NCBI GenBank assembly: GCA_018970445.1
Contig: JAGWWF010000004.1
Span: forward strand, 1 to 64,000
Direction: 5' to 3'
From: Alphaproteobacteria bacterium
Lineage (GTDB): Bacteria > Pseudomonadota > Alphaproteobacteria > Sphingomonadales > Sphingomonadaceae
DNA length: 64,000 bases
Positions 5,038 through 58,120 of this stretch are shown here, in pieces; position 1 is the stretch's first letter, and the number at the start of each line of letters is the position of its first letter. The translations under genes and the position numbers were made by a program. The notes under the pieces were generated by a model, which was given only the letters and a program-made list of their open reading frames with translations, did no database searches and was not told where the DNA came from.

Positions 5038-5143
5038 GGGCGGCTGCTCCCGCGCGCGGGCCGGCTCCACGGCCGCCCGGTCCCTTGCCTTGGGCCGCAC
5101 GCGGCCGCATCACCCCCCCGGTGCACCTGCTTGTTCGGGCGGT

Positions 5144-5626
5144 TCAGCCCGGATCGGCCAGCGCCCGCAATTCGGCGCGCAGCCGCGCGACATGGGCGCC
5201 ATCCACCGGCCGCCCGGCGCTGCCGCCGGCGCGGGTTGTGCCGGCATCGCGCCGGGCCAATATGGCCAGCGCCAGCTTGCTGTCGCGCAAATTGCTGGTC
5301 TTGCCCTCGCCGGCGTCGGCCTCGCTCAGCAGTTCCGACAACAGGCGGTTTTCCACCCGTTCCCAGGCGATGGTGATGGCATCCTGCCACTGCGCGGCGA
5401 ATTCGGCATCGGCATCGCGCACGCGATAGGCATCAAACACCGAAATCCCCAGCCCCCTGGCCGCCACCGCCGGATCGCCGCTGCGCGCCAGCGCATCCAG
5501 AAACACCAGCCGCTTGGCCCGTGTGCCAAACACCCGCCGCCCCAGCCGCGTGCGCGGCCGCGCGCCATTGGCGCGCACGCGCACCGGCGCCGCTGGCTGT
5601 CCAGCCAGCATCAGTTCATCCATCAT
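5144..5626 (-). CDS. Terminase small subunit-like DNA-binding protein (GTA g1-like)
   Basis: Probable DNA-recognition subunit of the packaging motor. The 160-residue protein has an N-terminal basic tail, then a helix-turn-helix: 'RLVFLDALARSGDPAVAARGL' split over two helices followed by 'GISVFDAYRVRDADAEFAAQW', a Trp-containing segment common in small terminases. The C-terminal part has helical 'LALAILARR' and 'HVARLRAELRALADPG'. It is the first gene of the minus-strand cluster, 54 bases from the predicted transcription start. Identification relies on the HTH and position; the family is very divergent. Confidence 0.7.
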   Translation of the reverse strand: MMDELMLAGQPAAPVRVRANGARPRTRLGRRVFGTRAKRLVFLDALARSGDPAVAARGLGISVFDAYRVRDADAEFAAQWQDAITIAWERVENRLLSELLSEADAGEGKTSNLRDSKLALAILARRDAGTTRAGGSAGRPVDGAHVARLRAELRALADPG

Positions 5627-5686
5627 CGCCAGAAGGCCCTTTCGCTTGACCGGACCCGTTCAGGCCGATTCCGCAGGCATGACGAA

Positions 5687-5715
5687 TATATAACCAACAC
5701 CGTCACGCATGTCAA
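5687..5715 (-). promoter_or_regulatory. Near-consensus sigma-70 promoter for the GTA-like cluster
   Basis: On the minus strand a perfect -35 TTGACA (5710-5715) is separated by exactly 17 bases from TATATA (5687-5692). Transcription would begin near 5680 and run into the terminase small-subunit gene at 5626. The surrounding 60 bases are markedly AT-richer than the rest of the window. This is the best -35/-10 pair I found in the window. Confidence 0.75.
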
Positions 5716-5749
5716 TATAAAATGTGCCTATATGGTTCGTTTCGCGGCG

Positions 5750-6568
5750 TCAGACGATCCTCACCCCGTCCGGCAGCTCGCCCTTGTCCCAAAAGGCCAG
5801 CGCGGCCTGGCGTTCGAACAGATCGGGCGGCAGGATGGTGGGCCGGGGCCGCAGCCCCACCCGGCTGCCCACGCTGTGCAGCCCCGGCGCGCCCAGCCGC
5901 GCATCGAACATCAGCGCATCATAATCCTGTTCGACATGATCGGGATCATAAGCAAACATCGGCTGGCCGATGAAGCTGTGGATCGCCGACAGCGTGGCCA
6001 GCGGTTCGGCCGCCAGCGTATCATAACGCACCAGCATGATGCGGTCGCGATGGGCGCCAAACACGGCTTCACGCACGGCGGCCAGGGCAAAGCCGATCAT
6101 GCCACTGGCCGACATCAGGCCATCGGCGCGGCTGTACACCGTGCCGCCGGGATCGAATTTGAACAGGCCCGATGGCTCCAGCGGGTTGCGCTGGGTCAGG
6201 CTTTCGATTGAATCCAGCACCCAGGCCGGATTGCGCACGCAGGCGATGATCCGCGCATCCGGATATAATCGGGCCAGCAGCGACAGGCGGGTGGGCCACA
6301 GGCGGTTGGTATCAAACACGCACTGGTGCGGATGGATATCGCAATAATAGGCGGCAACCGCGGCGGTGAGGATGCGGGCGCGCTGATCATCATCGATGAA
6401 CACCGCGCCCTCATTTTCCTGGCTCATCAACCGGGCCAGCCCCTGCACCAGGCTGGCCACCGGGCTGCTCATGGCGGCGTGGAAATGCGGATTTTGCCGC
6501 AGCAGCGCGGCCAGCAGGGTGGAACCGGCGCGCGGCAATCCGGCAACGAAATGCAGGCCATTGTTCAT
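5750..6568 (-). CDS. PAPS-dependent sulfotransferase family protein
   Basis: Predicted to transfer sulfate from PAPS to an unknown acceptor. The 272-residue protein opens with the 5'-phosphosulfate loop 'FVAGLPRAGSTLLAALL', and 'RIIACVRNPAWVLDSIES' is the 3'-phosphate-binding segment with its conserved Arg and Ser. The central 'FDTNRLWP' and later 'LVRYDTLAAEPLATLSAI' also fit the family. There is no signal peptide, so it should be cytosolic. It ends 34 bases before the cluster promoter and is transcribed towards the phage-like genes; no functional link to them is evident. Substrate unknown. Confidence 0.85.
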   Translation of the reverse strand: MNNGLHFVAGLPRAGSTLLAALLRQNPHFHAAMSSPVASLVQGLARLMSQENEGAVFIDDDQRARILTAAVAAYYCDIHPHQCVFDTNRLWPTRLSLLARLYPDARIIACVRNPAWVLDSIESLTQRNPLEPSGLFKFDPGGTVYSRADGLMSASGMIGFALAAVREAVFGAHRDRIMLVRYDTLAAEPLATLSAIHSFIGQPMFAYDPDHVEQDYDALMFDARLGAPGLHSVGSRVGLRPRPTILPPDLFERQAALAFWDKGELPDGVRIV

Positions 6569-6600
6569 GCGCGGTCAGCTGGCACGGCCGGGGCGACCGT

Positions 6601-7434
6601 TCAGGCCGGCTGTGCCACCGCGCGCAGCCGCCGGCGCAGGGCAAAGCCGATCAGGCCAAAGCCCGACAACAGCATCGACCACACCGATGGTTCCGGCACC
6701 GCGGCAATGCTCACGCTGCCATGGCCGGTGTTGAAGCCCAATATCTGCTGATGGCTGCCCCCGTTGAACGAACCGCCGCCGCCGCCGGGCACAAGTTCGT
6801 GGGTGGCGCCGCCGCTGTAGCCGCCGCCGCCGCCGCCGCCAAAAAAGCCGCCGCCGCCGCCGCCGCCAAAGCCACCGGCGGCAAAGCCGGTGCCGCCCGC
6901 CAGCCCTGGAAAGCCGCCGCCGCCCGTGCCATTGCCGCCATCGCCGCCGGCCGAACGGAAACCGCCGCCGGCGCCGGCGTTGACGGCTTCCCCGCCCAGG
7001 CCACCGGTGCCGCCGCTGGCGGGGCCGGCATTGCCGCCATCGGGGCCGCTGCTGGCATTGCCGCCGTTGCCATAGGCCATGGCCCCGCCGCCGCCGCCAG
7101 CGATCAGCAGCGCCGCACCTTCGCTGGCAACAAAGCTGCCGCCACCACCGCCGCCGCCGAAATAGGCGCTGCTGCCATAGCCACCGGCACCGCCAACGGC
7201 GATATCAAGCTGCTGGCCGGCAAACAGCGTGAACCGGCCGCTGAGCGCGATGCCGAGGCCACCCGAATGGGTAAAGACCTGACCGCCCTGGGCACCGCTG
7301 GCGGTGATCACAAACACGCCCGCGCGCGGTGCGGTCCACTGGGTGATGTTGCCGGTAAAGCCGAAGGAGGCGGCCTGGGCCGCCGTGGCCAGCAGCGTGG
7401 CGGCCGAAACACCGGCCAGCAGGAAAAATTTCAT
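6601..7434 (-). CDS. Glycine-rich PEP-CTERM exported protein
   Basis: Exported protein predicted to be processed by an exosortase. The 277 residues comprise a signal peptide (residues 1-22, ending TAAQA), a beta-type N-terminal part, a glycine-rich central domain (about residues 90-235, many runs of four to seven Gly), and a PEP-CTERM tail: 'VPEPSVWSMLLSGFGLIGF' followed by an Arg cluster. The middle resembles glycine-rich domains that precede PEP-CTERM or autotransporter tails. Such proteins are usually surface or extracellular-matrix components. No exosortase gene is visible here. The GC-rich Gly codon runs may be prone to slippage. Confidence 0.88.
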   Translation of the reverse strand: MKFFLLAGVSAATLLATAAQAASFGFTGNITQWTAPRAGVFVITASGAQGGQVFTHSGGLGIALSGRFTLFAGQQLDIAVGGAGGYGSSAYFGGGGGGGSFVASEGAALLIAGGGGGAMAYGNGGNASSGPDGGNAGPASGGTGGLGGEAVNAGAGGGFRSAGGDGGNGTGGGGFPGLAGGTGFAAGGFGGGGGGGFFGGGGGGGYSGGATHELVPGGGGGSFNGGSHQQILGFNTGHGSVSIAAVPEPSVWSMLLSGFGLIGFALRRRLRAVAQPA

Positions 7435-10049: not shown

Positions 10050-11170
10050 CGCACCGTCCCGGCTGCCTTCAACGCCGCCACCCGGCCATCATCATAGCCC
10101 AGTTCGGCCAGAATCGCATCGCTTTCCAAGGCCTTGGTCATGCGCGGGCCAGCGTTTTGCGTGGCGGAATAGCGCGGCGCCGGGGCCGGTTGCATCACGC
10201 CATCGGCCTCCACGAAGGTGCCGCGCGCCGCATTGTGCGGATGGTGCGGCGCTTCGGCCATCGACAGCACCGGGGCAAAGCAGATGTCGGTCATCTCCAT
10301 GATCGCGCACCAGTCATCGCGCGACTTGGTCTTGAACAGCACAGTCAAGCGATCCTTCAACATCGGCCAGTTGGCGGCGTTCATCTGGGCGGCGAAATCG
10401 GGATCATCCTTCAACCCGGTCTTTTCCAGCAACAGCGCATAGAACTGCGGTTCCAGACTGCCGATGCTGATGAACTTGCCATCTGAACATTCATATGTGT
10501 CATACATGTGCGCGCCGGTATCCAGCAGATTGACGCCGCGTTCATCCTTCCAGATGCCGTTGGCGCGGAACCCCCAGATCATCGCCATCAGCGCGGCGGC
10601 GCCATCGGTCATCGCGCAATCGATCACCTGGCCCTGGCCGGTGGTTTTCGCATGCAGCAGGGCGGCCACCATGCCAAAGGCCAGCATCATGCCGCCGCCG
10701 CCAAAATCGCCGACCATGTTGATCGGCGGTGTCGGCTTGTCCCCGGCCCGGCCATAGCCATGCAGGGCGCCGGCCAGCGCGATATAGTTGATGTCGTGCC
10801 CGGCGGCGTGGGCATAGGGGCCAAACTGGCCCCAGCCGGTCATCCGGCCATAGACGAGGCGACTGTTCACCGCATGGCAATCGGCCGGGCCCAGGCCCAG
10901 CCGCTCGGTCACGCCGGGGCGGAAGCCTTCGAACAGGGCATCGGCCGATTTCACCAGATCCAGCACCAGCGCACGGCCGTCGGCGCTTTTCAGATCCACC
11001 CCGATCACCCGGCGCCCGCGCAGCAGGGGATCGCGGGCATCGATGCGGGCGCCCGGCCGATCGATGCGGATCACCTCTGCGCCATGATCGGCCAGCATCA
11101 TGCCGGCAAACGGCCCCGGCCCGATCCCGGCCAGTTCGATGATCCTGATCCCCTTCAGCGGCCCGGCCAT
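10046..11170 (-). CDS. CaiB/BaiF CoA-transferase family protein, alpha-methylacyl-CoA racemase-like
   Basis: Family III CoA-transferase fold; the closest subgroup is alpha-methylacyl-CoA racemase, which epimerises 2-methyl-branched acyl-CoAs. The 374 residues carry the N-terminal Rossmann phrase '[17 protein letters not shown]', '[13 protein letters not shown]', '[20 protein letters not shown]' (racemase-type His and Asp), and '[18 protein letters not shown]'. The last His/Asp arrangement favours racemase over transferase. Start at 11170 follows the usual family N-terminus (MAGPLKGI). First gene of a three-gene overlapping operon with dgt and a serine hydrolase; divergent from the oxidoreductase at 11299. 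Confidence 0.85.
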
Positions 11171-47050: not shown

Positions 47051-49606
47051 TCAGAATTTGAAGCCGATTTCAGCCCCGATCACCCGGCGCTGGCCGGGCG
47101 AAATGAAGCTGCCGCCAAATTCGATCGCCGGGATCACTTCGTTCAGCCACTGCCGGTCCAGCAGATTGTTGGCAAACACGGTGGCCGTCCAGTTCCTGGC
47201 TTCGATGCCGGCGCGCAGGTTGACGATGCCGAACGCATCGCGGCGCGTCACGTCATACCGGGCGTTGCCCACCACGGCGGGCAGCGCCAGCGCCGAAATC
47301 GGCAGCAGGCCGCTGAACAATGTGGGCTTTTCCTGATTCTGCACGCTGTGGAACCAGGTTGGCCCGGTCAACCGGTAATCGGCGCGCAGATTGGCCTTCA
47401 GCCCGTCGCTGATCGGCAGGCTCAATTGCGTGCCCAGGTTCAGCGTGTAATCGGCGGTATAGGGGCTGTTGTTGCCCACCGTGTCGGGCCGGCTGCTGTT
47501 CTTCTTGATCTCGCTGCCGTTCACATTGCCCGATGCAAACACCGTCCAGCCATCCAGCAGCTTGGCGTTCACATTGGCTTCGGCGCCCCACACATCCACG
47601 CGATCGATGTTGGACACCACGCGCAGCAGGCCAAAGCCGCCCACGAAGAATTCAAAGAACTGCATGTCGCGCACCTGGGTGTAGAAGGCGGCCAGATCAT
47701 AGCTGACACGACCATCGAACAGGCTGCCCTTCACCCCGGCTTCGAACGCGGAGCTGCGTTCCAGACGATATTGATCATTGATGCGCACGCCGGCGTTGAT
47801 GGTGCCGGGCACCGTGCCATTGTTGAAATTCTGCGCCACGATCGCGGCCGAACCCTGGTTGTTGAACCCGCCCGATTTGAAGCCCACACCCCAGTTGGCA
47901 AAGAGGTTGGTATCGTCGTTCAGCTTGTATCCCAGGCTGATCTTGGGTTGCAGCTGGCGGAACGTATTTGCCACTGGCGCGATGGTCGCGCCATTCTGGC
48001 CGGGGTTGATCGGCCCGCCGGTGATCGGATCGTTCACCAGCGGCACCAGATTGGTGGCGCTGCGCCGTTCGATGTCATAGCGCATGGCCAGGCCGGCGGT
48101 GAACGCCTCGCTGGGCTTCCAGTCCAGCGTGCCGAAGGCGGCATAGACATTGGTATCGAACCGGTCGTTGAACAACTGGCTGGTCGGGTTGGTCGAACCC
48201 GGCGCGTTGTAAAGCGTGGGGGACACGCCCTGGCCCAGATCGGCGCCCAGGCTGACGCCGGTTTCGCGATCGATGTTGAGATAATAAAGCCCGGCCGACC
48301 AGTTGATCGGCCCGTCGCCGGTGCTGGCATAGCGGATTTCGGCCGAAACATCCTTCTGCCGGCGCGTCTGCAACTGGGTGCCGTCGCAGGTGGTCGGGCT
48401 GTAGGCGCCAAAGGTGGAGCCATTGGCCGGGGCAAAGATGAACGGCACCGGGATCTGGCCGATGAAGGTGGGCTGGGCCAGCGGGAACCCGCGCAGCTGG
48501 GCCGTGGTGGCAAAGCAGCGGTTGTTCACCGCCTGGCTGGTGGGGTTGTTGATGTTGCTGATGTAACGGGCAAAATCGGCCGAGGTGCCATCGGCGGTGA
48601 GCGCCTGGTCAACATCGGAAAACAGCGTCCACGCCGTCAGCCGGCCCTTGTCGAATTCATGTTCGATGCGGGCGCTGGCTTCCCAGGTCGTCTGTTCGTT
48701 GGTCGGGCGGATGTTGCCATAATAACGGAACTGACGATCGTTGACATTTTCATAGAAGGCCGGGTTCACCGCGGCGAAATTGGGCAGGTGAAAACTGGCG
48801 TTGAAATTGATCGACGCGCCCTGGAGGTGGGCGTGACGGGCCTTCACGTCCAGCGTGGTGGCATCGCCCAGTTTCGCCACGATGCGGCCATCCAGGCCAT
48901 AATTTTCCTGATCGTCCACCACCTTGGCATTGCCCAGGAACTCGTTGCGCCAGAAGCCATCGGTCGTCTGGTAATTGGCGGACAGCACGAAGCCGACGCC
49001 ATCGGCAATCGGCCCGGCGACATGGCCAAAGGCCTGGCCGGTGGCCAGCTCGCCATAATTGGCGCGGAAACTGCCCGACAGCACATCGCCCGGCTTCACC
49101 GTGCTCATCACGATCGCGCCGGCGGCGGCATTGCGGCCATAGATGGCGCCCTGCGGGCCCTTGAGCACTTCCACCTGGGTCAGCGTGCCCTGCACCTGGT
49201 TCAGCTGGGCGGTGTTGGTCTTCAAGATGCCGTCCACCACCAGCGCCACGCTCGATTCGGCGTCGCGCGCGCCGTTCAGGCCACGGATGTTGATCTGGGT
49301 GTCCCCCGCCTCGGCCGTGCCCGACACGATGGTGACGCCGGGGGTGAGCTGCAACATTTCCTGCGACCGGAAGGTGCCGGTGGCGGCCAGGGTTTCAGCG
49401 GTGATCACCGACACGGTGGCCGGCACATCCTGCAACTTCTCGCTGTTGCGGCGGGCGGTGACGATGATCTCCTCGGCGGCATCCTCGCTTGCGGCCTGCT
49501 GCGCGGCCACCGGGGCGGCAAGAGCGGCCACCGATGCCAGCAGCGCCGTCACCAGCGCGCCTCGCGCCGTCACCGGGACCCGAAAACCTGCCACCACATC
49601 GCGCAT
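47051..49606 (-). CDS. TonB-dependent receptor, putative substrate importer for the adjacent catabolic cluster
   Basis: Outer-membrane active transporter. The 851-residue protein has a signal peptide (ending APVAAQQ), a TonB-box region 'EEIIVTARRNSEKLQDVPAT', the plug domain with 'GVTIVSGTAEAGDTQINIRG' and 'VEVLKGPQGAIYGRNAAAGA', and a 22-strand barrel ending 'ISPGQRRVIGAEIGFKF' with a terminal Phe. GGGAG supports the start at 49606. It lies divergent from the GntR regulator with an operator-like palindrome between them, so it probably carries the substrate of that regulon. Not a siderophore-type receptor by context. Confidence 0.92.
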   Translation of the reverse strand: MRDVVAGFRVPVTARGALVTALLASVAALAAPVAAQQAASEDAAEEIIVTARRNSEKLQDVPATVSVITAETLAATGTFRSQEMLQLTPGVTIVSGTAEAGDTQINIRGLNGARDAESSVALVVDGILKTNTAQLNQVQGTLTQVEVLKGPQGAIYGRNAAAGAIVMSTVKPGDVLSGSFRANYGELATGQAFGHVAGPIADGVGFVLSANYQTTDGFWRNEFLGNAKVVDDQENYGLDGRIVAKLGDATTLDVKARHAHLQGASINFNASFHLPNFAAVNPAFYENVNDRQFRYYGNIRPTNEQTTWEASARIEHEFDKGRLTAWTLFSDVDQALTADGTSADFARYISNINNPTSQAVNNRCFATTAQLRGFPLAQPTFIGQIPVPFIFAPANGSTFGAYSPTTCDGTQLQTRRQKDVSAEIRYASTGDGPINWSAGLYYLNIDRETGVSLGADLGQGVSPTLYNAPGSTNPTSQLFNDRFDTNVYAAFGTLDWKPSEAFTAGLAMRYDIERRSATNLVPLVNDPITGGPINPGQNGATIAPVANTFRQLQPKISLGYKLNDDTNLFANWGVGFKSGGFNNQGSAAIVAQNFNNGTVPGTINAGVRINDQYRLERSSAFEAGVKGSLFDGRVSYDLAAFYTQVRDMQFFEFFVGGFGLLRVVSNIDRVDVWGAEANVNAKLLDGWTVFASGNVNGSEIKKNSSRPDTVGNNSPYTADYTLNLGTQLSLPISDGLKANLRADYRLTGPTWFHSVQNQEKPTLFSGLLPISALALPAVVGNARYDVTRRDAFGIVNLRAGIEARNWTATVFANNLLDRQWLNEVIPAIEFGGSFISPGQRRVIGAEIGFKF

Positions 49607-49661
49607 CTTGCCCACTCCCGGTTGCTCTGCGGCCGCTCCCTGCCGCGTTGACGTGCAGCTC

Positions 49662-49671
49662 TTGTATACAA
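49662..49671. promoter_or_regulatory. Putative GntR operator, site 1
   Basis: Perfect 10-bp palindrome TTGTATACAA in the gap between the TonB receptor start (49606) and gntR start (49773), followed by AACCC. The identical 15-base TTGTATACAAAACCC recurs at 51070. Its TATACA could serve as a -10 element on either strand. The palindrome sits about 100 bases before gntR. Confidence 0.7.
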
Positions 49672-49772
49672 AACCCCGTGCTGGCAAGGTGCCAATGCGC
49701 CACACGGGTGCAAACGCGGGCGAGCGTCACCGCTTTGCAACAGTATCGCGCCCACTTCGGATCGTTCCCCTG

Positions 49773-50417
49773 ATGACCACCGCATCGGACAAAGCCTATG
49801 CCGAAATCCGCGGCCTGATCCTGGCCGGCGATGCCAGCCCCGGCACACCGCTGCGCGAAGAGGCGCTGGCCGATATCGTGGGCGTGTCGCGCACCCCGGT
49901 GCGCGAGGCGCTGAAACGGCTGGAGGCCGAACATTATGCCATCCGCACCTCCGGCGGCCGGCTGGTGGTGGCGGCCTGGGATGGCGATGACGTGGCGGAA
50001 ATCTTTGCCCTGCGCGCCATGCTGGAAGGCCATGCCGCCGCCCGCGCCGCCCGCCGCATCACGCCCGATGCGCTGCTGGCGCTGAAGGCGTGTAACCAGG
50101 CCCTGCAGGCCGCCGTGGCCGGCGACGCGCCCGATGTGGCGCGGTTTCTGGCCGAAAACCGGCGCTTCCACGATCTGGTGATCGGCGCATCGGCATCGGC
50201 GCGGCTGGCCACCATGCTGGCCAGCCTGGTGGAACAGCCGATCGTGCGGCGCACCGCCACCCGCTATGCCCGCGATGATCTGATGCGATCAGCCCATGAA
50301 CATGATCAATTGATTCAAGCCTTTGCAGCGCGCGATGCGGAATGGGCCAAGGCGGTGATGGCCGCCCACATCCACCGCGCGCTTCACGCCTTCCGCACCG
50401 CAAGTCCTTCGAAATAG
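49773..50417 (+). CDS. GntR-family transcriptional regulator (FadR/FCD subfamily)
   Basis: Likely repressor of the surrounding catabolic genes. In 214 residues: N-terminal winged helix 'AYAEIRGLILAGDASPGTPL', 'LADIVGVSRTPVREALKRLE' and wing 'YAIRTSGGRLVVAAW', then an FCD effector domain from about residue 75 ('VAEIFALRAMLEGHAAARAA', 'ENRRFHDLVIGASASARL', 'HEHDQLIQAFAARDAEW AK' region) with metal/ligand His residues. Its last 34 bases overlap the 3' end of the convergent hydrolase gene. Two TTGTATACAA sites flank it. Confidence 0.93.
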   Translation: MTTASDKAYAEIRGLILAGDASPGTPLREEALADIVGVSRTPVREALKRLEAEHYAIRTSGGRLVVAAWDGDDVAEIFALRAMLEGHAAARAARRITPDALLALKACNQALQAAVAGDAPDVARFLAENRRFHDLVIGASASARLATMLASLVEQPIVRRTATRYARDDLMRSAHEHDQLIQAFAARDAEWAKAVMAAHIHRALHAFRTASPSK

Positions 50418-51022
50418 GCGATTATTTTTGCAGCGGGCCGGATTTCCGCCGTCTTGGCCGCCAGATCGAACAGATTGGCCCGGTGCACGCTGTCCAGCCG
50501 GTCGCCCACGCCGTCTTCCACCACCAGCGGCACATAGCCGCAACAGATGGCATCCACCGCGCTGGCCCGCACGCAGCCCGATGTCGAAAGCCCGCAGATC
50601 ACCAGCGTGTCGATGCCGGCAGCCTTGAGCCGCGCATCCAGATCGGTGCCGAAAAAGGCCGAGGGATATTGCTTGGTGATCACCGCCTCGCCGGGCGCCG
50701 GCAGCAGCGGCGGTTCGAAATCGCCCAGCAGGCTGCCCCGGTCAAACACCTGCAACGCCGCGATCTTGCGATAGAAAACCCCGCCATTGGCACCGCCCGG
50801 TTCATATTCCACCCGCGTGTGCAGCACCGGCACGCCGCGCGCGCGCGCCGCTGCCAGCACGCCCGCCGCCACATCGCGCACCGCCTCCACCGCGGCATAG
50901 AGCGGCGATCCGGCCGCAAAATAGGCCCGGGCAAAATCGATCATCAGCAGCGCCGGCGCCTTGCCCGGCGCCAGCCCCTGGCCGAACCCCGCGCCCCGAT
51001 AATCCGCCGCCGCGTCAACCAT
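50384..51022 (-). CDS. Isochorismatase-family cysteine hydrolase (N-carbamoylsarcosine amidohydrolase-like)
   Basis: Predicted C-N hydrolase. The 212 residues contain the catalytic triad: Asp in 'ALLMIDFARAYFAAGS', Lys in 'EAVITKQYPSAFFGTDLDA', and Cys in 'ICGLSTSGCVRASAVDAICC'. The 'STSGCVRASAVDA' form resembles N-carbamoylsarcosine amidohydrolase, which yields CO2, ammonia and sarcosine, more than nicotinamidases. Together with neighbouring HyuA/HyuB it recalls the N-methylhydantoin route of creatinine breakdown, but the HMGL and CoA-transferase genes do not belong to that pathway, so the substrate is open. Confidence 0.85.
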   Translation of the reverse strand: MVDAAADYRGAGFGQGLAPGKAPALLMIDFARAYFAAGSPLYAAVEAVRDVAAGVLAAARARGVPVLHTRVEYEPGGANGGVFYRKIAALQVFDRGSLLGDFEPPLLPAPGEAVITKQYPSAFFGTDLDARLKAAGIDTLVICGLSTSGCVRASAVDAICCGYVPLVVEDGVGDRLDSVHRANLFDLAAKTAEIRPAAKIIAYFEGLAVRKA

Positions 51023-51069
51023 CCGCAACCCTTTCGCCGTGATGCCGTCTATACAGCGGCCTGTCAGCT

Positions 51070-51079
51070 TTGTATACAA
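51070..51079. promoter_or_regulatory. Putative GntR operator, site 2
   Basis: A second TTGTATACAA, with AACCC following, only five bases before the HMGL-like ATG at 51085 and 48 bases before the divergent hydrolase start (51022). If TATACA (51073-51078) is the -10, transcription starts at or near the A of the ATG, implying a leaderless mRNA; no Shine-Dalgarno is present. Binding here would block both divergent genes. Confidence 0.65.
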
Positions 51080-51084
51080 AACCC

Positions 51085-52029
51085 ATGTCTCCCCTGCCCC
51101 CCATCCAGATCGTCGAGGTCTCCCCCCGCGACGGCCTCCAGAACGAGGCGCAACTGGTTGAAACGGCCAGCAAGATCGCACTTGTAGAGCATCTGGTCGC
51201 CTGCGGCGCGCGCCGGATCGAGGTGGCCAGCTTCGTCAATCCGCGCCGGGTGCCGCAGATGGCCGATGGCGAGGCGGTGATCGCCGGGCTGCCCGCGGCA
51301 CCCGGCGTGCGCTTCATCGGCCTGTGCCTGAACGAACGCGGTGTCGATCGTGCCATCGCCACGCTGGCCGGCCGCCGTCCGCTGGACGAAGCCGGCTGCG
51401 TGCTGGTGGCCAGCGACAGTTTCGGCATCGTCAACCAGGGCCAGAGCATCAGCGACGGCATCGCCGCCAACAGCGCCATGCTGGCCAAGGCGAAGGCTGC
51501 CGGCCTGTTCGCGCAGGTGACGATCAGCGCCGCCTTCGGCTGCCCCTATGAAGGCCCGGTGCCGGCCGAGCGCATCGTCGATCTGGCCCGGCGCATGGCC
51601 GACGCCGGCGCGCAGGAAATCGCGCTGGCCGATACGATCGGCGTGGGCGTGCCGGGTCAGGTGGGCGAGCTGACGCAGCGGGTGATCGAGGCCATCGCCC
51701 CCATCCCCATCCGCCTGCACCTGCACGACACGCGCGGGCTGGCGCCGGCCAATGCCTGGGCCGCCTATCAGGCCGGCTGCCGCACCTTTGATTCGGCGCT
51801 GGGCGGCCTGGGTGGCTGCCCGTTCGCGCCGGGGGCGGCCGGCAATGTCGGCACCGAGGAACTTCTGTATCTGTTCGGCCGGTCGGGCGTTGCCCATGGC
51901 CTTGATCTGGAAACCACCCTGGCGGCCAACGCCTGGTTTGCCACCATCATGGGCCGCGCCCTGCCCAGCCGGGCCGGCAAGGCCGGTGACTTTGTCGCGC
52001 GCCCCCTTCCCACCGGAGCAAGCCTGTGA
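51085..52029 (+). CDS. Hydroxymethylglutaryl-CoA lyase-like protein (HMGL/DRE-TIM)
   Basis: TIM-barrel enzyme that cleaves or joins acyl-CoA carbon bonds, using a divalent metal. The 314 residues show 'IVEVSPRDGLQNEAQLVETA' (catalytic Arg-Asp), 'IEVASFVNPRRVPQMAD', 'SAAFGCPYEGPVPAERIVD', the metal His pair 'IRLHLHDTRGLAPANAW', and 'LGGLGGCPFAPGAAGNVGTE' with the loop Cys, so all active-site elements are present. Relatives act on HMG-CoA and other branched beta-hydroxyacyl-CoAs. It overlaps the hyuA start (GTGA) and is first in a transcript with HyuA, SRPBCC, HyuB and CoA-transferase. Confidence 0.9.
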   Translation: MSPLPPIQIVEVSPRDGLQNEAQLVETASKIALVEHLVACGARRIEVASFVNPRRVPQMADGEAVIAGLPAAPGVRFIGLCLNERGVDRAIATLAGRRPLDEAGCVLVASDSFGIVNQGQSISDGIAANSAMLAKAKAAGLFAQVTISAAFGCPYEGPVPAERIVDLARRMADAGAQEIALADTIGVGVPGQVGELTQRVIEAIAPIPIRLHLHDTRGLAPANAWAAYQAGCRTFDSALGGLGGCPFAPGAAGNVGTEELLYLFGRSGVAHGLDLETTLAANAWFATIMGRALPSRAGKAGDFVARPLPTGASL

Positions 52030-54077
52030 GCTATCGTCCGCAAAGTTACAGATTGGGCGTCGATGTCGGCGGCACCTTCACCGATCTGATCGTCATCGAC
52101 GAAGCAACCGGCCGCGCGGTGCGCGACAAGGTGCCATCCACCCCGCATGATCCATCCGAAGCGGTGATCGCCGGGGCACAGGCGCTGGCGGCCAGGGCCG
52201 GAATTTCCGCCGCCGATCTCTCGCTGTTCCTGCACGGCACCACGGTCGCCACCAATGCCGTGCTGGAACAGAAGATCGCGCGGGTCGGCCTGATCGTCAC
52301 CACCGGCTATCGCCACATATTGCAGATCGCCCGCAGCCTGGTGCCCGGCGGCCTGGCGGCCTGGATCGTGTGGCCCAAGCCCACCCCGATGGCCCCGCTG
52401 GAAGCCACGATCGAGGCCGATGAACGCATCGGTGCCGATGGTGCCATCGTCCGCCCGCTGGATGAAGCCGCCCTGCGCCAGAGCCTCAAGCGGCTGGCCG
52501 AGGAGAAGGTGGAGGCGATCACCGTCTGCCTGATCAACAGTTACATGAACGATGCCCATGAACGCCGCATCGCGCAGATCTGTGCCGAGGAACTGCCCGG
52601 CCTGCCGGTGTCGCTGTCGGCCGATATCCTGCCCGAAATGCAGGAATATGAGCGGGCGCTGACCACCGTGGCCAACAGCGCGGTGCGCCCCACCGTCAGC
52701 CGTTATGTCGGCAATCTGGAACGCGCCCTGGCCGATTGGGGCACGCCGGCCAAGCTCAACCTGCTGCGGTCCGACGGCGGCCTGATGTCGGCCGAAAAAA
52801 GCCGCACGGCACCGGTGAACCTGCTGATGTCCGGCCCGGCCGGCGGCGTGGCCGGCGCGGTGTGGATCGCCAAGAACGCGCAGCTGCCCAACGTCCTCAC
52901 GCTTGACATGGGCGGCACCTCCACCGATGTCGCCCTGATCGAGGATTATCAGCCGCGCCTGCGCCGCGAAACCAGCGTTGGCCATCTCACCGTGCGCGCC
53001 TCCAGCCTGGACGTGAAGACGGTGGGCGCCGGCGGCGGCTCCATCGCCACCGTGCCGGAATTGACGAAGGCGCTGCGCGTCGGCCCGCAATCGGCCGGCG
53101 CGGTGCCCGGCCCGGCCGCCTATGGCCGCGGCGGCGAACTGCCCACCGTCACCGATGCCAATGTCGTCTTGGGCTATCTGCCCGAAAATCTGCTCGGCGG
53201 CGCCTTCAGGCTTGATCGCGAAGCCTCCCGGCGCGCGGTGCAGACGGTGGCCGACGCGCTGGGCCTGCCGCTGCTGGATGCCGCCGCGGGCATCATCGCC
53301 ATCGTCAACGAAACCATGTTCGGCGCCCTGCGGCTGGTGTCCGTGCAGCAAGGTTATGATCCGCGCGATTTTGCCCTGATGGCCTTTGGCGGCGCCGGCC
53401 CGCTGCACGGCAACGCCATGGGCATGCTGATGGGATCATGGCCGGTCATCATCCCGCCCTCGCCCGGGGTGCTGTGCGCCTATGGCGATGCCACCACCCG
53501 GCTGCGCGTCGATGCGCAGCGCAGCTTCAACCGCCTTGTCACCCACACCAGCGATGGCGAAGTGGGCGCGGTGATCGATGAACTGATCGCCCAGACCAGC
53601 GCCGAACTGGTCGCCGAAGGCGTGGCCGCCAGCGACGTGGACATCCGCACCGAAATCGACATCCGCTATGCCGGGCAGGCCTTTGAAGTTCCGCTGCACG
53701 CGCCCGCCGGCACCAGCATCGCCAGCCTGGCCGCCCGCTTCGATGCCGAACACAAGCGCCTGTTCACCTTCAATCTTTCGGTGCCGCAGGAACTTGTCAA
53801 CATCCGCGTCGTGGCGCTGGGCAAGGCCGCCAATGTCTCGGCCACCCGCATCGCCAGAGGGGACGGCAACCCCACGGCCGCCCGCCTGCGCGACCATGAA
53901 CTGTGGATGGACGGCCAGGCCCGCGCCGCCGCCATCTATGACCGGGCGCTGCTGCGCGCCGGCGACATCGTGCCCGGCCCGGCGGTGATCACCGAGATGG
54001 ATTCGACCACGCTGGTCCACAACGGCCATATCGCCACGGTGGACGATGTCGGCAATCTGCTGATCACGCCGGCGTGA
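52026..54077 (+). CDS. Hydantoinase/oxoprolinase family protein, subunit A (HyuA-like)
   Basis: ATP-using subunit of a cyclic-amide or acetone-carboxylase-type enzyme. The 683 residues have the actin-like phosphate loops 'RLGVDVGGTFTDLIVIDEAT' and 'LTLDMGGTSTDVALIEDYQ', 'LFLHGTTVATNAVLEQKI' and 'SGPAGGVAGAVWIAKNAQ'. Family members phosphorylate and open hydantoins, oxoproline or N-methylhydantoin, or carboxylate acetone. The GTG start overlaps the HMGL stop. Its partner HyuB lies 611 bases on, with an exported-protein gene placed between them. Exact substrate unknown. Confidence 0.9.
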   Translation: MSYRPQSYRLGVDVGGTFTDLIVIDEATGRAVRDKVPSTPHDPSEAVIAGAQALAARAGISAADLSLFLHGTTVATNAVLEQKIARVGLIVTTGYRHILQIARSLVPGGLAAWIVWPKPTPMAPLEATIEADERIGADGAIVRPLDEAALRQSLKRLAEEKVEAITVCLINSYMNDAHERRIAQICAEELPGLPVSLSADILPEMQEYERALTTVANSAVRPTVSRYVGNLERALADWGTPAKLNLLRSDGGLMSAEKSRTAPVNLLMSGPAGGVAGAVWIAKNAQLPNVLTLDMGGTSTDVALIEDYQPRLRRETSVGHLTVRASSLDVKTVGAGGGSIATVPELTKALRVGPQSAGAVPGPAAYGRGGELPTVTDANVVLGYLPENLLGGAFRLDREASRRAVQTVADALGLPLLDAAAGIIAIVNETMFGALRLVSVQQGYDPRDFALMAFGGAGPLHGNAMGMLMGSWPVIIPPSPGVLCAYGDATTRLRVDAQRSFNRLVTHTSDGEVGAVIDELIAQTSAELVAEGVAASDVDIRTEIDIRYAGQAFEVPLHAPAGTSIASLAARFDAEHKRLFTFNLSVPQELVNIRVVALGKAANVSATRIARGDGNPTAARLRDHELWMDGQARAAAIYDRALLRAGDIVPGPAVITEMDSTTLVHNGHIATVDDVGNLLITPA

Positions 54078-54664
54078 TGCGCCGCCCGCGTCGCCCTGGC
54101 CCGTCGGCCGCCGTCGCCCCGCGCCGGCCATGGCCGCTGCCGTGGCTGGCCGGCTGGCTGCTGCTGGCCGCCGTGCTGATGGCGCGACCGGCCCAGGCGC
54201 GGCTGGCCAGCCAGAGCGCCGATGGCTTTGTTTCTTCCAGCACCGCGCTGCTGCCGCTGCCGCCGGCCGCCGTCTGGGCCGCGCTGACCAACTGGAGCGC
54301 CTGGTGGGACCCGGCGCACAGCTATGGCGGCACGCCGGGAACGATCACGCTGGAAGCCAGCGCCGGCGGCCGGCTGGTGGAGCGCTGGCCGGGCGGCAGC
54401 ACCATCCACGCCAGCGTGCTCACCGTGATGCCGCCGGCGCTGCTGCGCCTGTCGGGCGGCTTTGGCCCGTTGCAATCGCTGCCGGTCAATGCCGTGCTTG
54501 ATATCAGCCTGAAACCCGAAGCCGGCGGCACCCGGCTGCAACTTGTCTATCGCGTCGGCGGCACGGCGGCCGACGGGCTGGACACGCTGGCAGCGCCGGT
54601 GGACGCCGTGATGAGCGCCGGTTTCGCCCGGCTGGTGCGTTTCGCCACCACCGGCAAACCCTGA
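54077..54664 (+). CDS. Exported SRPBCC/START-like protein
   Basis: A protein of 195 residues with a long N-terminal export region: a basic, Arg/Pro-rich stretch (residues 1-20), a hydrophobic core (about 24-37, 'LAGWLLLAAVLMA') ending RPAQA, and an SRPBCC (Bet v1-like) fold: 'ALLPLPPAAVWAALTNWSAW', 'GTITLEASAGGRLVERWPGG' and 'TRLQLVYRVGG'. These domains bind hydrophobic ligands. The ATG overlaps the HyuA stop. Its insertion between hyuA and hyuB, with overlapping codons, implies a role in the same pathway, perhaps periplasmic substrate binding. Confidence 0.8.
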   Translation: MRRPRRPGPSAAVAPRRPWPLPWLAGWLLLAAVLMARPAQARLASQSADGFVSSSTALLPLPPAAVWAALTNWSAWWDPAHSYGGTPGTITLEASAGGRLVERWPGGSTIHASVLTVMPPALLRLSGGFGPLQSLPVNAVLDISLKPEAGGTRLQLVYRVGGTAADGLDTLAAPVDAVMSAGFARLVRFATTGKP

Positions 54665-54688
54665 CAGACCTGGTTGAAGGAAACGGAC

Positions 54689-56578
54689 ATGCCCGCCCGC
54701 ATCATCGAAACCAATCCGCAGCCGTTCGCGCCCCGGGCGATCGATCCCGTCAGCCTGGACATCATCGAAAATGCCCTGCGCAACGCCCGCATCGAGATGG
54801 ACGCCACCCTGGTGCGCACCGCCATGTCGCCCGGCATCCGCGAACAGGGCGATGCCTTCCCGATGATCGCCAACCCGGCGGGCAAGATGATCGTGGGCCA
54901 GTTCGGCAGCTTCATCGATGGGTTCCTGCGCGGCTGGGACGGCAGCATCGAGGAGGGTGACATGATCTTCCTCTCCGATCCCTACAGCTGCGAGGGCGCG
55001 ATCAGCCATTCCAACGACTGGCTGGTGCTGCTGCCGGTCTATCGGTCCGGCCGGCTGCTGGCGTGGACGGCGATGTTCGGCCACCAGAGCGACATTGGCG
55101 GCAAGGTTGCCGGCTCGATGCCGATCGATGCCCGCTCGATCTTCGAAGAGGGTGTGCGCATCCCGCCGGTGAAGATCTGGAGGAAGGGCGAATATAACGA
55201 GGATCTGGTCAAGCTGATCATGCACCAGACCCGCAAGCCCGACTGGTGCGCCGCCGATCTGAACGCCCTGATCGCCTCGTGCCGGGTGGCCGCCCGCCGC
55301 ATCGATGAAATGTGCGCCCGCTTTGGCGAGGATGAACTGGTGGCCGCGATGGACGCGCTGCTGGCCCGCAACCACCGCGCCATGAAGGCGCTGATCGCCG
55401 CGTCGGTCTCCACTGACAAGGTGAGCTTTGAAGATTTCGTCTGCGATGATGGCGTGGGCTATGGCCCCTACAAGATCAAATGCACGATGAGCCGGGTGGG
55501 CGACAAGGTGGTGCTGGATTTTGCCGGCACCGATCCGCAATCCGATGCCGCGATCAATTTCTATCTGAACGAAAACATGTTCAAGATGTTCTTCGGCATC
55601 TACATGATCATGGTCTTTGATCCGCAGATCATGTTCAACGATGGTTTCTATGACCTGATCGAGGTGAAGATCCCGGAAGGATCATTGCTCAAGCCGCGCT
55701 ATCCCGCCGCCCTGTCGGGCCGCACCCATGCGCTTGGCCGCATCTTCGATCTGCTGGGCGCGCTGCTCGGCCAGCGCACGCCGGAATTCCTGTGCGCCGC
55801 CGGCTTCTCCTCGTCCCCGCACCTGATGTATTCCGGGCGTGATCAGCGGCCGGGCAAGGGCGGTGAATGGTTCCAGCTGTTCCAGATCGGTTTCGGCGGC
55901 ATCCCCGGCAAGCCGTTCGGCGATGGCCCCGACGGCCATTCGCTGTGGCCCGGCTTCACCAACGTGCCCAACGAATTCCTGGAACGCTATTTCCCGCTGC
56001 GCATCGAACGTTATGAGGCGCTGGCCGATACCGGCGGTGCCGGCAGATATCGCGGCGGCAACGGCATCTTGATGTCCTACCGCTTCCTGTCGGCCGGCAC
56101 CGTCTCGATCCATGATGATCGCTGGTTCACCTATCCCTGGGGCGTGAACGGCGGCGAACCCGGTGCCCGCGCCCGCAAGATCCTCGAAAAGGCCGATGGC
56201 ACCCAGACCATCGTCGCCAACAAGCTGGACAGTCTGGACGTGGCGGCCGGCGACCAGCTGCACTTCATCACCTGGGGCGGCGGCGGCTGGGGCAACCCGC
56301 TCGATCGCGATCCGGCGCTGGTGGGCCTGGAAATCCGCCAGGGGCTGGTCAGCGCGGCGGGCGCGCGCGCCTATGGCGTGGTCGCCGATGCCGATGGTGT
56401 GGTAGACGCCGCCGCCACCGCGCGCTTGCGCGCCGAACTGGCCGCGGCCGGGCCGGCCGAACCCGCCATCTTCAACCGCGGCGGCACGGTGGAGCAGCTG
56501 CGCGCCGCCTGTGAAGCCGAAACCGGCCTGCCCGCGCCCAGGCCGCCGGTGTGGCAGCAGGCCGAGGCGGCGCAATGA
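54689..56578 (+). CDS. Hydantoinase B/oxoprolinase family protein (HyuB-like)
   Basis: Partner of HyuA. The 629 residues contain family blocks 'SLDIIENALRNARIEMDATL', 'FLSDPYSCEGAISHSNDWL', 'AMFGHQSDIGGKVAGSMP' with the metal His/Asp, and near the end 'TGGAGRYRGGNGILMSYRF' and 'NGGEPGARARKILEKADG'. AAGGA before ATG 54689 sets the start; a TTG at 54674 is not needed. The full-length chain with all blocks suggests activity. It overlaps the CoA-transferase start (ATGA). Confidence 0.9.
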   Translation: MPARIIETNPQPFAPRAIDPVSLDIIENALRNARIEMDATLVRTAMSPGIREQGDAFPMIANPAGKMIVGQFGSFIDGFLRGWDGSIEEGDMIFLSDPYSCEGAISHSNDWLVLLPVYRSGRLLAWTAMFGHQSDIGGKVAGSMPIDARSIFEEGVRIPPVKIWRKGEYNEDLVKLIMHQTRKPDWCAADLNALIASCRVAARRIDEMCARFGEDELVAAMDALLARNHRAMKALIAASVSTDKVSFEDFVCDDGVGYGPYKIKCTMSRVGDKVVLDFAGTDPQSDAAINFYLNENMFKMFFGIYMIMVFDPQIMFNDGFYDLIEVKIPEGSLLKPRYPAALSGRTHALGRIFDLLGALLGQRTPEFLCAAGFSSSPHLMYSGRDQRPGKGGEWFQLFQIGFGGIPGKPFGDGPDGHSLWPGFTNVPNEFLERYFPLRIERYEALADTGGAGRYRGGNGILMSYRFLSAGTVSIHDDRWFTYPWGVNGGEPGARARKILEKADGTQTIVANKLDSLDVAAGDQLHFITWGGGGWGNPLDRDPALVGLEIRQGLVSAAGARAYGVVADADGVVDAAATARLRAELAAAGPAEPAIFNRGGTVEQLRAACEAETGLPAPRPPVWQQAEAAQ

Positions 56579-57786
56579 CCAGCGCCGTCACCGGGCCGCT
56601 CGCCGGCATCACCGTTGTCGAAATGGGCCAGCTGATCGCCGGGCCCTTCTGCGGCCAGTTGCTGGGCGACATGGGCGCCGACGTGATCAAGCTGGAACCG
56701 CCCGGCGAAATCGGCAAGGGCGGGGGTGATCCGATGCGCGTCTGGGGCCGCGGCGATTATCCGCTGTGGTGGGAAGTGGTGGCCCGCAACAAGCGCGCGG
56801 TGTCGTGCAACCTGCGCCTGCCGCAGGGCCAGCAACTGGCGCGCGACCTGATTGCCAGGGCCGACATATTGATCGAGAATTTTCGCCCCGGCACGCTGGA
56901 AAAATGGGGGCTGGCACCCGAAACCCTGCACGCGTTGAACCCCGGCCTGATCATTGTGCGCGTGTCCGGCTATGGCCAGTCCGGTCCCTATGCGGCGCGT
57001 GCGGGCTTTGGCGGCATCGGCGAGGCGATGGGCGGCTGGCGTGCCATCGTGGGCGATCCCGATCGCCCGCCCAGCCGCATGGGCGTTTCGATCGGCGACA
57101 CGCTGGCCGCCACCTATGGCGCGCTCGGCGCGCTGGCCGCGCTCAACCACCGCCACGCCACCGGCCAGGGCCAGATCGTCGATTCCGCCCTGTATGAAGC
57201 GGTGCTGCAGGTGATGGAAAGCCAGGTGCCCGAATATGTCGCGTCGGGCTATGTCCGCGAACGGTCGGGATCGGTGCTGCCGGGCATTGCGCCCAGCAAT
57301 GTCTATCCGTGCAGCGATGGCGAATATCTGATCGGCGCCAATCAGGATACGGTGTTCAGCCGGCTGTGCACCGCCATGGGCCGCCCCGAACTGGCCAGCG
57401 ATCCGCGCTATGCCACCCATGTCGCGCGCGGCAGGCACCAGGACGAGCTGGACGCGCTGATCGGCGCATGGACGCGCACCCTGACGATTGCCGAACTGGA
57501 AGAGCGGATGATCGCCGCCGGCGTGCCGGCCGGCAAGCTGTTCCGCCCGGCCGACATGCTGGCCGATCCGCACTTCCAGGCGCGCGAGGCGATCATCGGC
57601 GTGCCCCACCCGCGCTGGGGCGAAGTGAAGATGCAGAATGTCTTCCCCAAATTGTCGGCCACCCCCGGCAGCGTGCGCCGCCGCGCGCCCGAAACCATCG
57701 GGCAGGACAATGATGCCGTCTATGGCGAGCTGCTGGGCCTGGATGCCGCCGCGCTTGCCGATTTGCGCCAACGTGGCATCATCTGA
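56575..57786 (+). CDS. CaiB/BaiF family CoA-transferase
   Basis: Family III CoA-transferase, which moves CoA between carboxylic acids without ATP. In 403 residues: 'GQLIAGPFCGQLLGDMGADV', 'RGDYPLWWEVVARNKRAVS', 'ENFRPGTLEKWGLAPETLH', 'IIVRVSGYGQSGPYAARAGF' and 'IVDSALYEAVLQVMESQVP' (catalytic Asp region). It is the last gene of the overlapping unit with hyuA/hyuB and the HMGL-like enzyme. It plausibly makes the CoA thioester that the HMGL-like lyase then cleaves. Donor and acceptor are not predictable. Confidence 0.9.
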   Translation: MTSAVTGPLAGITVVEMGQLIAGPFCGQLLGDMGADVIKLEPPGEIGKGGGDPMRVWGRGDYPLWWEVVARNKRAVSCNLRLPQGQQLARDLIARADILIENFRPGTLEKWGLAPETLHALNPGLIIVRVSGYGQSGPYAARAGFGGIGEAMGGWRAIVGDPDRPPSRMGVSIGDTLAATYGALGALAALNHRHATGQGQIVDSALYEAVLQVMESQVPEYVASGYVRERSGSVLPGIAPSNVYPCSDGEYLIGANQDTVFSRLCTAMGRPELASDPRYATHVARGRHQDELDALIGAWTRTLTIAELEERMIAAGVPAGKLFRPADMLADPHFQAREAIIGVPHPRWGEVKMQNVFPKLSATPGSVRRRAPETIGQDNDAVYGELLGLDAAALADLRQRGII

Positions 57787-57814
57787 TGCCACCACCGCTG
57801 CGGAGCCTTCCGGA

Positions 57815-58120
57815 ATGAAATCTGCCCTGCCTGTCCTTGCCCTCGCGCTTTGTCTTGCCAGCCCGGCGGCGGCGGCAGTTGGCCATGGCTTTCGCAACGA
57901 AACCACCGCCGGCCTGCGCTGCCGCCTGTCCAGCGAAGGCAAGGACACCGCGATGACCATCCAGCTGGAGCCGATGGAAACGGTGACGGTGCAGGGCCCC
58001 TATCGCGACATCCGCTGCGAAGAACCGGTGCTGCGCCAGCGCTGGCCGCTGGCCGATGGCGGAAACTATGTCTTCCGCCGCAACAAGGATGGCAACACCA
58101 TCGGCCTGGCCCCGCGCTGA
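57815..58120 (+). CDS. Small secreted protein of unknown function
   Basis: A 101-residue protein with a clear signal peptide (residues 1-21, ending SPAAAA) and a beta-rich mature part starting VGHGFRNETTAGLRCRL. Two Cys residues (positions 35 and 69) may form a disulfide. I do not recognise the family. It follows the CoA-transferase by 28 bases on the same strand, so it could be the last gene of the catabolic operon. A 7-bp hairpin (58123-58129 with 58136-58142) just past the stop may be its terminator. Confidence 0.7.
   Translation: MKSALPVLALALCLASPAAAAVGHGFRNETTAGLRCRLSSEGKDTAMTIQLEPMETVTVQGPYRDIRCEEPVLRQRWPLADGGNYVFRRNKDGNTIGLAPR

Follow-up and report, generated by a model that had tools for sequence, protein, structure and literature searches.

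Why should an ATP-dependent, hydantoinase-type enzyme be encoded side by side with an amidohydrolase, a CoA-transferase and a relative of 3-hydroxy-3-methylglutaryl-CoA (HMG-CoA) lyase? The question is raised by eight genes within positions 47,051 to 58,120 of a 64,000-nucleotide stretch (the window) of contig JAGWWF010000004.1, from a sphingomonad genome assembled as 3.03 Mb in 45 contigs. All eight lie where the original prediction, made from the sequence alone, had put them, and every assignment passes the Pfam gathering cut-off (Table 1). The answer we favour, at about an even chance, is that the block is a GntR-controlled regulon for an undescribed catabolism of cyclic imides, the substrate being the imide of an alkyl-malate or alkyl-maleate. 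No description of the gene set was found in the literature searched, which was mostly that outside subscription journals, and one may exist in print.

Are the genes controlled together? The original prediction counted three transcription units. Gene order instead gives four, arranged as two divergent pairs. In one pair the receptor gene is opposed to gntR. In the other, the isochorismatase-fold hydrolase gene is opposed to a run of five genes encoding the HMG-CoA-lyase-family enzyme (HMGL), HyuA, an SRPBCC protein, HyuB and the CoA-transferase, which overlap or are separated by at most 24 bases. Each divergent region holds one exact copy of the palindrome TTGTATACAA, and there are exactly two such copies in the whole genome. 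The reversed pattern, a control, has one copy in the genome, and none of 100 shuffles of the window reached two copies of the palindrome.

The palindrome also recurs in relatives. A set of 83 related loci (HyuA identity of at least 56%, hyuA flanks of at least 6 kb on one side and 5 kb on the other; one strain is present twice) contains 80 copies, where a first-order model expects 0.11. Seventy-six of these belong to loci with both HMGL and CoA-transferase genes (50 of 65 such loci carry them), and the remaining four are in three loci (L106, L108, and L112). All 80 are located close to the start of a block gene, at most 450 bases upstream of it or 60 bases into the gene. The genes concerned are those for the receptor, GntR, RACE (an Asp/Glu-racemase family protein), the hydrolase, HMGL and the CoA-transferase, with hyuA added in L106, L108, and L112. 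A wider set consists of 107 distinct loci (HyuA identity of at least 50% and enough flanking sequence; 109 before two duplicates were removed). Here the site is present in 49 of the 55 loci with HMGL, CoA-transferase, receptor and gntR vs. 4 of the 52 others, while the reversed pattern has one copy and two other palindromes have two and three. Because TTGTATACAA is unique to both promoter pairs and recurs beside block genes, the single regulon proposed originally is well supported, with TTGTATACAA as its putative operator. The GntR/FCD protein would bind it in both divergent regions and would presumably be released by the substrate or an intermediate.

Table 1. Features of the block, with window positions and the family matches or other basis for each.
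Feature	Positions	Strand	Basis
TonB-dependent outer-membrane receptor	47051..49606	-	PF00593 + PF07715 above Pfam cut-off
TTGTATACAA palindrome between tonB and gntR, putative GntR operator	49662..49671		exact copy
GntR-family regulator with FCD ligand domain	49773..50417	+	PF00392 + PF07729 above cut-off
Isochorismatase-fold amidohydrolase, proposed half-amidase	50384..51022	-	PF00857
Second TTGTATACAA palindrome, between hydrolase and HMGL operon	51070..51079		exact copy
HMG-CoA-lyase-family enzyme (HMGL)	51085..52029	+	NCBIfam PRK05692
HyuA, ATP-binding subunit of ATP-dependent cyclic-amide hydrolase	52026..54077	+	PF01968, PF05378, PF19278
SRPBCC (START-like) fold protein	54074..54664	+	PF10604
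HyuB, metal-site subunit	54689..56578	+	PF02538
Class III (CaiB/BaiF) CoA-transferase	56575..57786	+	PF02515
Small ORF	57815..58120	+	no family match

Is the block more than a chance grouping? Conservation across sphingomonads, to which the original prediction pointed, was checked by neighbourhood searches and found. Neighbours were scored as tblastn matches within 9 kb of hyuA at identity thresholds that we set; the loci, picked for the similarity of their HyuA, do not form a random sample. In a family-wide search 158 of 397 genomes match HyuA at 1e-80, distant paralogues counted, and the named relatives with the highest HyuA identity (91-93%) include Sandarakinorhabdus oryzae, S. cyanobacteriorum, S. 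rubra, and S. limnophila. All 83 loci of the narrower set have hyuB, and most have genes for the CoA-transferase (68), HMGL (65), hydrolase (65), GntR (63) and receptor (61); RACE (26) and SRPBCC (8) are less common. The counts for the 107 loci are hyuB 107, hydrolase 76, CoA-transferase 71, HMGL 68, gntR 66, and receptor 61, followed by LeuC (12), a methylisocitrate-lyase-family enzyme of the isocitrate-lyase/PEP-mutase group (PEPM, 11) and SRPBCC (7). HMGL never occurs without the CoA-transferase. The pair recurs near hyuA in 68 of the 107 loci, which argues against chance, and these 68 also have the isochorismatase-fold gene in 59 cases, the receptor in 56, the regulator in 63, and all three in 48. 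The block is conserved in sphingomonads, S. limnophila DSM 17366 and Blastomonas natatoria DSM 3183 among them, and its HyuAB-hydrolase core is also present in other Proteobacteria, Geobacillus, Rubrobacter, and haloarchaea.

One clue to the first reaction is the kind of enzyme that HyuAB resembles. The best solved relative of HyuA is annotated as N-methylhydantoinase (7hk5, 443.8 bits) and another is caprolactamase (6yra, 363.1 bits), whereas acetophenone carboxylase (282.9 bits) and acetone carboxylase (242.7 bits) are further away. HyuA conserves glycine-rich motifs that we take to be the ATP site. The hydantoinase branch has been set apart from ketone carboxylases by its two genes in A-B order and its lack of a gamma subunit (PMC5214803, available part). 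The hyuAB genes have this arrangement, that of the hydantoinase/lactamase (Hyd) branch. An Asp-His-Asp-His metal site is named for subunit B (PMC8453981, available part), and HyuB D55, H107, D110, and H132 align with CapB D41, H99, D102, and H124 in the 6yra alignment, so that all four ligands are kept. The NCBIfam equivalogs CapA and CapB are not reached (517.2 and 214.6 bits vs. a cut-off of 1000). By these published marks HyuAB appears to belong to the hydrolase branch, and ATP-dependent hydrolysis of a cyclic amide is predicted from the family.

The next clue is the isochorismatase-fold enzyme. Its D29, K117, and C150 align with solved relatives and are presumably the Asp-Lys-Cys catalytic triad of the maleamate/N-carbamoylsarcosine amidohydrolase group. 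The best solved relatives are 3ot4 (130.7 bits), which we take to be the maleamate amidohydrolase NicF, and N-carbamoylsarcosine amidohydrolase (26st, 126.9 bits). Because an amidohydrolase adjoins the ring-opening enzyme, the ring product probably keeps an amide or carbamoyl group, as expected from an imide or a hydantoin. We prefer the imide because a hydantoin would give an amino acid, for which the recurring partners have no evident use. In one relative (L039) the block has a DUF885 gene (4820-6649) that separates gntR from the hydrolase gene.

What happens to the resulting acid? HMGL passes the cut-off of PRK05692, the hydroxymethylglutaryl-CoA lyase subfamily (293.3 bits vs. 246), and aligns with the human enzyme at R-D, E, H-x-H, C, and N, which we take to be catalytic positions. 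It is the sole such gene found in the genome, the only other match being weak and partial (97 residues, E 1.8e-5). Membership of this family does not fix the substrate, and cleavage of HMG-CoA itself would be a family-based prediction. Matches in four HMGL relatives that seemed to have a TGA inside proved to end at plain stop codons. The CoA-transferase is a clear member of its family (PF02515, 408 bits vs. 23.3), far below its nearest NCBIfam equivalogs, succinate-glutarate (266.2 bits vs. 750) and succinyl-CoA:mesaconate (228.2 bits vs. 700) CoA-transferases. Its best solved relative scores 247.9 bits and succinate-HMG CoA-transferase 183.5 bits. The genome has eight class III CoA-transferase matches, the block's own included, and one of the others is also in the window (10295-11170; 35% identity to the block's copy).

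The clue to the carbon skeleton is that the C-C-cutting end of the block varies. It is a CoA-transferase with HMGL, a CoA-transferase with a citramalate-synthase-family enzyme, or a methylisocitrate-lyase-family enzyme, and some loci add LeuCD. LeuCD hydrates alkyl-maleates, and methylisocitrate and dimethylmalate lyases cut acids of the 2-methylmalate type. Citramalate synthase and HMG-CoA lyase are members of a single superfamily and act on tertiary-alcohol acids. It is because these exchangeable partners have an alkylmalate skeleton in common that we propose one for the substrate. In eight genomes checked with LeuC near hyuA, each has at least one further LeuC. The PEPM copy of L134 has methylisocitrate lyase as its nearest NCBIfam model, below cut-off; methylisocitrate lyase and 2,3-dimethylmalate lyase are among its solved relatives, of which the best is annotated as carboxyphosphonate phosphorylmutase. 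A HyuA tree of 37 rows needs at least six switches of end type. With kinship ignored, the two ends also seem to avoid each other (Fisher p = 0.0017 in the 107 loci and 0.018 in the smaller set).

Plasmids carry the same variation. HyuB relatives were found in 20 plasmid records, and the following counts come from the 13 with annotation among 14 that were inspected (all but H3 and H6-H10). The isochorismatase-fold gene adjoins hyuAB in 11 of the 13. Six have a CoA-transferase together with an HMGL or citramalate-synthase/LeuA-family gene, four have an isocitrate-lyase/PEP-mutase-family gene, none has both ends within the stretch read, and three have no complete end (H4, H5, and H20). Three haloarchaeal plasmids pair a CoA-transferase with a gene annotated as citramalate synthase or LeuA family (one confirmed by scan); identity to the window is 47% for HyuA and 38% for the CoA-transferase in Haladaptatus. 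Geobacillus pGYMC5201 (L179) has all seven genes: hydrolase, hyuA, hyuB, CoA-transferase, HMGL and, past a transposase, leuC and leuD (identity to the window 48% for HyuA, 52% for the CoA-transferase, and 39% for HMGL). This plasmid is 45 kb long and has IS701, IS982, and IS1634 transposase genes around the module.

A second kind of operon is found in sphingomonads. Six of 23 genomes have a second full-length HMGL (39-42% identity), and in four of the six (L137, L138, L140, and L141) it belongs to an operon of leuC, leuD, HMGL and a class III CoA-transferase gene without hyuAB. This operon adjoins an isochorismatase-fold gene and two PuuE-like genes (Pfam-checked for L137 only). L139 has leuC, leuD, HMGL and CoA-transferase genes nearby in a different order and without the two hydrolase types, and L142 has only the CoA-transferase gene beside HMGL. 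The best solved relative of one PuuE-like protein is PuuE allantoinase, and the PuuE group is related to a proven cyclic imidase (PMC9304392, available part). By analogy, another imidase may stand in HyuAB's place in the L137-type operon, which would make it a second imide pathway that works without HyuAB.

How might the pathway run? A cyclic imide with an alkyl-malate or alkyl-maleate skeleton would enter through the TonB receptor. HyuAB would open the ring to a half-amide at the expense of ATP, as its family does, and the isochorismatase-fold enzyme would release ammonia to leave a dicarboxylate, in the manner of maleamate amidohydrolase. If the ring were unsaturated, the acid would then be hydrated to an alkyl-malate, for which some copies may use their own LeuCD; here the step could fall to the genome's single LeuCD elsewhere, to another enzyme, or to nothing. 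The class III CoA-transferase would form the CoA ester of the alkyl-malate, which HMGL would split to release an acyl-CoA and an oxo acid, for example pyruvate. The methylisocitrate-lyase-type end of other copies would give pyruvate and an acid. The original prediction put ring opening first, then amide hydrolysis, CoA transfer and finally C-C cleavage, and the comparative data now lend this order support.

Several points weigh against this reading. It is built from gene content, operators, conservation and variation of parts, and all of its reactions, as well as the substrate class, are inferred from these. A kinship-aware test of the exchange of ends is not significant (median p 0.5). Nor are the two ends strictly exclusive: both are present in L053 and L134, L156 and L161 have a PEPM gene plus a distant HMGL/CoA-transferase pair that falls below our thresholds, and L158 has both ends below threshold (in these three loci HMGL 39-41% and CoA-transferase 27-31% identity). 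Neither end is complete, as defined, in 30 of the 107 loci. Several of these (L052, L058, and L059) are oxidase, methyltransferase or amine-oxidase clusters, which may serve other rings. L106 has a CoA-transferase without an HMGL match, and no lyase is found within 8 kb in the Rubrobacter cluster. Of the 65 loci with the HMGL/CoA-transferase pair, 15 lack an exact TTGTATACAA. The single LeuC of the window's genome is outside the block, which leaves hydration without a dedicated gene here. Finally, the near-equal scores of the hydrolase to its two best solved relatives leave a hydantoin compatible with the sequence.

What if the substrate is indeed a hydantoin? HyuAB would then open an N- or 5-substituted hydantoin, the isochorismatase-fold enzyme would take the carbamoyl group, and the lyase and CoA-transferase would serve another end. 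A likeness to creatinine/N-methylhydantoin breakdown had been remarked on originally, and part of it stands: the hydrolase is near N-carbamoylsarcosine amidohydrolase in score (a Novosphingobium copy is annotated by that name) and HyuA has N-methylhydantoinase as its best solved relative. However, the genome has no creatininase (PF02633) match, where 6 of 14 control genomes do, and the recurring LeuCD, methylisocitrate-lyase, HMGL and citramalate-synthase partners have no evident role once an amino acid is released. We therefore consider the hydantoin unlikely. The same partner variation, which indicates malate-type skeletons, bears on a route through HMG, in which 3-hydroxy-3-methylglutarimide or another HMG amide would be opened, the CoA-transferase would make HMG-CoA, and a true HMG-CoA lyase would yield acetyl-CoA and acetoacetate. 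HMGL does pass the subfamily cut-off and keep the residues aligned with the human enzyme, and succinate-HMG CoA-transferase is among the solved relatives of the CoA-transferase. It is not the nearest of them, and this route seems to us quite unlikely.

The remaining alternatives concern HyuAB itself. A lactam pathway, like that for caprolactam or, as a further model, N-methylpyrrolidone, would have HyuAB open a lactam to an amino acid; deamination and oxidation would turn this into a diacid, to be broken down as a CoA ester. Both subunits do have caprolactamase among their closest solved relatives, and some block relatives (L058 and L059) have amine oxidase and aldehyde dehydrogenase genes. 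Yet among the 68 loci with the HMGL/CoA-transferase pair none has an amine oxidase of that type nearby and only two have an aldehyde dehydrogenase, a second amidohydrolase is needless for a lactam, and the HyuA score is about half the caprolactamase cut-off (517 vs. 1000 bits). A lactam is thus decidedly improbable. Even harder to credit is an ATP-dependent ketone carboxylase, adding bicarbonate to a ketone whose product the CoA-transferase and lyase would process. HyuA is similar to the acetophenone and acetone enzymes, but it is nearer to N-methylhydantoinase and caprolactamase, there are two subunits and no gamma subunit, and the amidohydrolase is left unexplained.

If the substrate is an imide of the proposed kind, where might it come from? 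One speculative idea, and a long shot, is that the module is a bacterial and archaeal pathway for tetrapyrrole maleimides (hematinic acid, methylethylmaleimide, and methylvinylmaleimide) from oxidised chlorophyll or heme. Hematinic acid fits closely: its opening and deamidation would lead to 2-methyl-3-(2-carboxyethyl)maleate, which exceeds 2-methylaconitate by one CH2. Hydration of the LeuCD type would then give a homologue of 2-methylisocitrate, and a methylisocitrate-lyase-family enzyme, or a CoA-transferase with an HMGL-family lyase, would yield pyruvate and glutarate or glutaryl-CoA. Such a route would account for the company that PrpB-, LeuCD-, LeuA-, and HMGL-type enzymes keep with the same HyuAB and amidohydrolase. 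The fit is one of chemical reasoning, and none of the block's genes hints at tetrapyrroles. Chlorophyll and heme break down to maleimides and hematinic acid, which have been reported in leaves and lake sediments (PMC7318184, available part); in its own leaves that paper found hematinic acid and no maleimides. No bacterial pathway for maleimides or hematinic acid was found in the literature searched. Uptake genes differ among the relatives. Sphingomonads have the TonB receptor, while genes for a sugar-type ABC binding protein, ATPase and permease are beside L156 and L165, a sugar-type binding protein adjoins L151, and L161 has another ABC binding protein and permease. The sugar-type importer genes that adjoin some alphaproteobacterial relatives would suit a small polar substrate, without singling out hematinic acid.

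For the receptor we prefer the ATG at 49606 to an upstream GTG at 49705, and none of the 22 NCBIfam models listed for it reaches cut-off. Some other genes seem to be additions to the block. A general place for SRPBCC in the system is not supported: the gene is in only 7 of the 107 loci, all close relatives, and is a lineage-specific accessory. Its N-terminal stretch resembles a Sec signal by eye. A structural model (mean pLDDT 85.3) matches AHSA1-like/START-like structures (best E 2.4e-7), mostly uncharacterised START-like proteins with plant abscisic-acid receptors among them, and so suggests a fold and not a ligand. L129 (G038) has two predicted short ORFs of 151 and 111 residues at the SRPBCC place between hyuA and hyuB. 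The ORF ending at 58120 matches no Pfam or NCBIfam family, nothing corresponding to it lies within 9 kb of hyuA at the 107 loci, and it is probably outside the block. RACE and two SnoaL-like genes are part of the receptor operon in 26 of the 83 loci (e.g., L046, 6526-8107); RACE has no match in the window's genome. A role as a Cys-dependent racemase was rejected, Thr and Ser being at the two aligned cysteine positions in all 17 copies read. HyuAB relatives also occur in clusters with a varying mix of FAD oxidases or monooxygenases, aldehyde dehydrogenases, IclR, and a methyltransferase accompanied by a roughly 115-residue protein that matches no Pfam family (L052, L058, L062, L105, L177 on pJE1, and L176 on pTomTYG65b). 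These are possibly a pathway for a larger ring.

The core is present in Alphaproteobacteria and other Proteobacteria, in Bacillota, in Actinomycetota (with no lyase nearby), and in haloarchaea, and is annotated piecemeal as hydantoinase, HMG-CoA lyase, leucine biosynthesis and citramalate synthase. If the cyclic-imide reading holds, these common annotations would read differently. In the window's genome, for example, the automatic name of the sole HMG-CoA lyase would imply leucine breakdown, probably wrongly. Were tetrapyrrole maleimides the substrate, the module would supply a missing piece in what becomes of the carbon and nitrogen of chlorophyll and heme. An operator and a short set of enzymes make the system directly testable.

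How does the proposed pathway compare with known systems? With the hydantoinase/lactamase family (N-methylhydantoinase and CapAB) it shares two subunits in A-B order, the four metal ligands and the glycine-rich ATP-site motifs; it differs in its sub-cut-off scores to the listed NCBIfam equivalogs and in its CoA-transferase and lyase partners. The anaerobic indoleacetate (iaa) pathway includes a CoA-transferase step. It also includes a hydantoinase-type lactamase (PMC5214803 and PMC8453981, available parts), but the block has no aromatic-pathway genes. The aerobic indoleacetate (iad) pathway was considered, as a lyase of this kind might fit dioxindole chemistry, and was set aside, since it uses an acyl-CoA synthetase and a ketothiolase (PMC12633357, available part); the term hydantoinase does not occur in the available parts of PMC12633357, PMC9613470, and PMC10374108.

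Parallels also exist for the two halves of the pathway. The citramalate enzymes of Chloroflexus are, we presume, a class III CoA-transferase and a member of the HMGL family. If so, the same two families stand side by side in the window and in 68 of the 107 loci, and citramalate-synthase and LeuCD families turn up as partners in the block's relatives. The likeness is drawn by family only, and the block differs in joining the pair to HyuAB and an amidohydrolase. The named enzymes are (R)-citramalate CoA-transferase (EC 2.8.3.20) and (R)-citramalyl-CoA lyase (EC 4.1.3.46) (PMC8307300, available part). For the first half, the cyclic imidase HxnM and the amidase HxnN of the Aspergillus nidulans nicotinate pathway perform the same opening of an imide to a half-amide followed by release of ammonia to a diacid, although HxnM has another fold, related to PuuE, and the subsequent steps differ (PMC9304392, available part).

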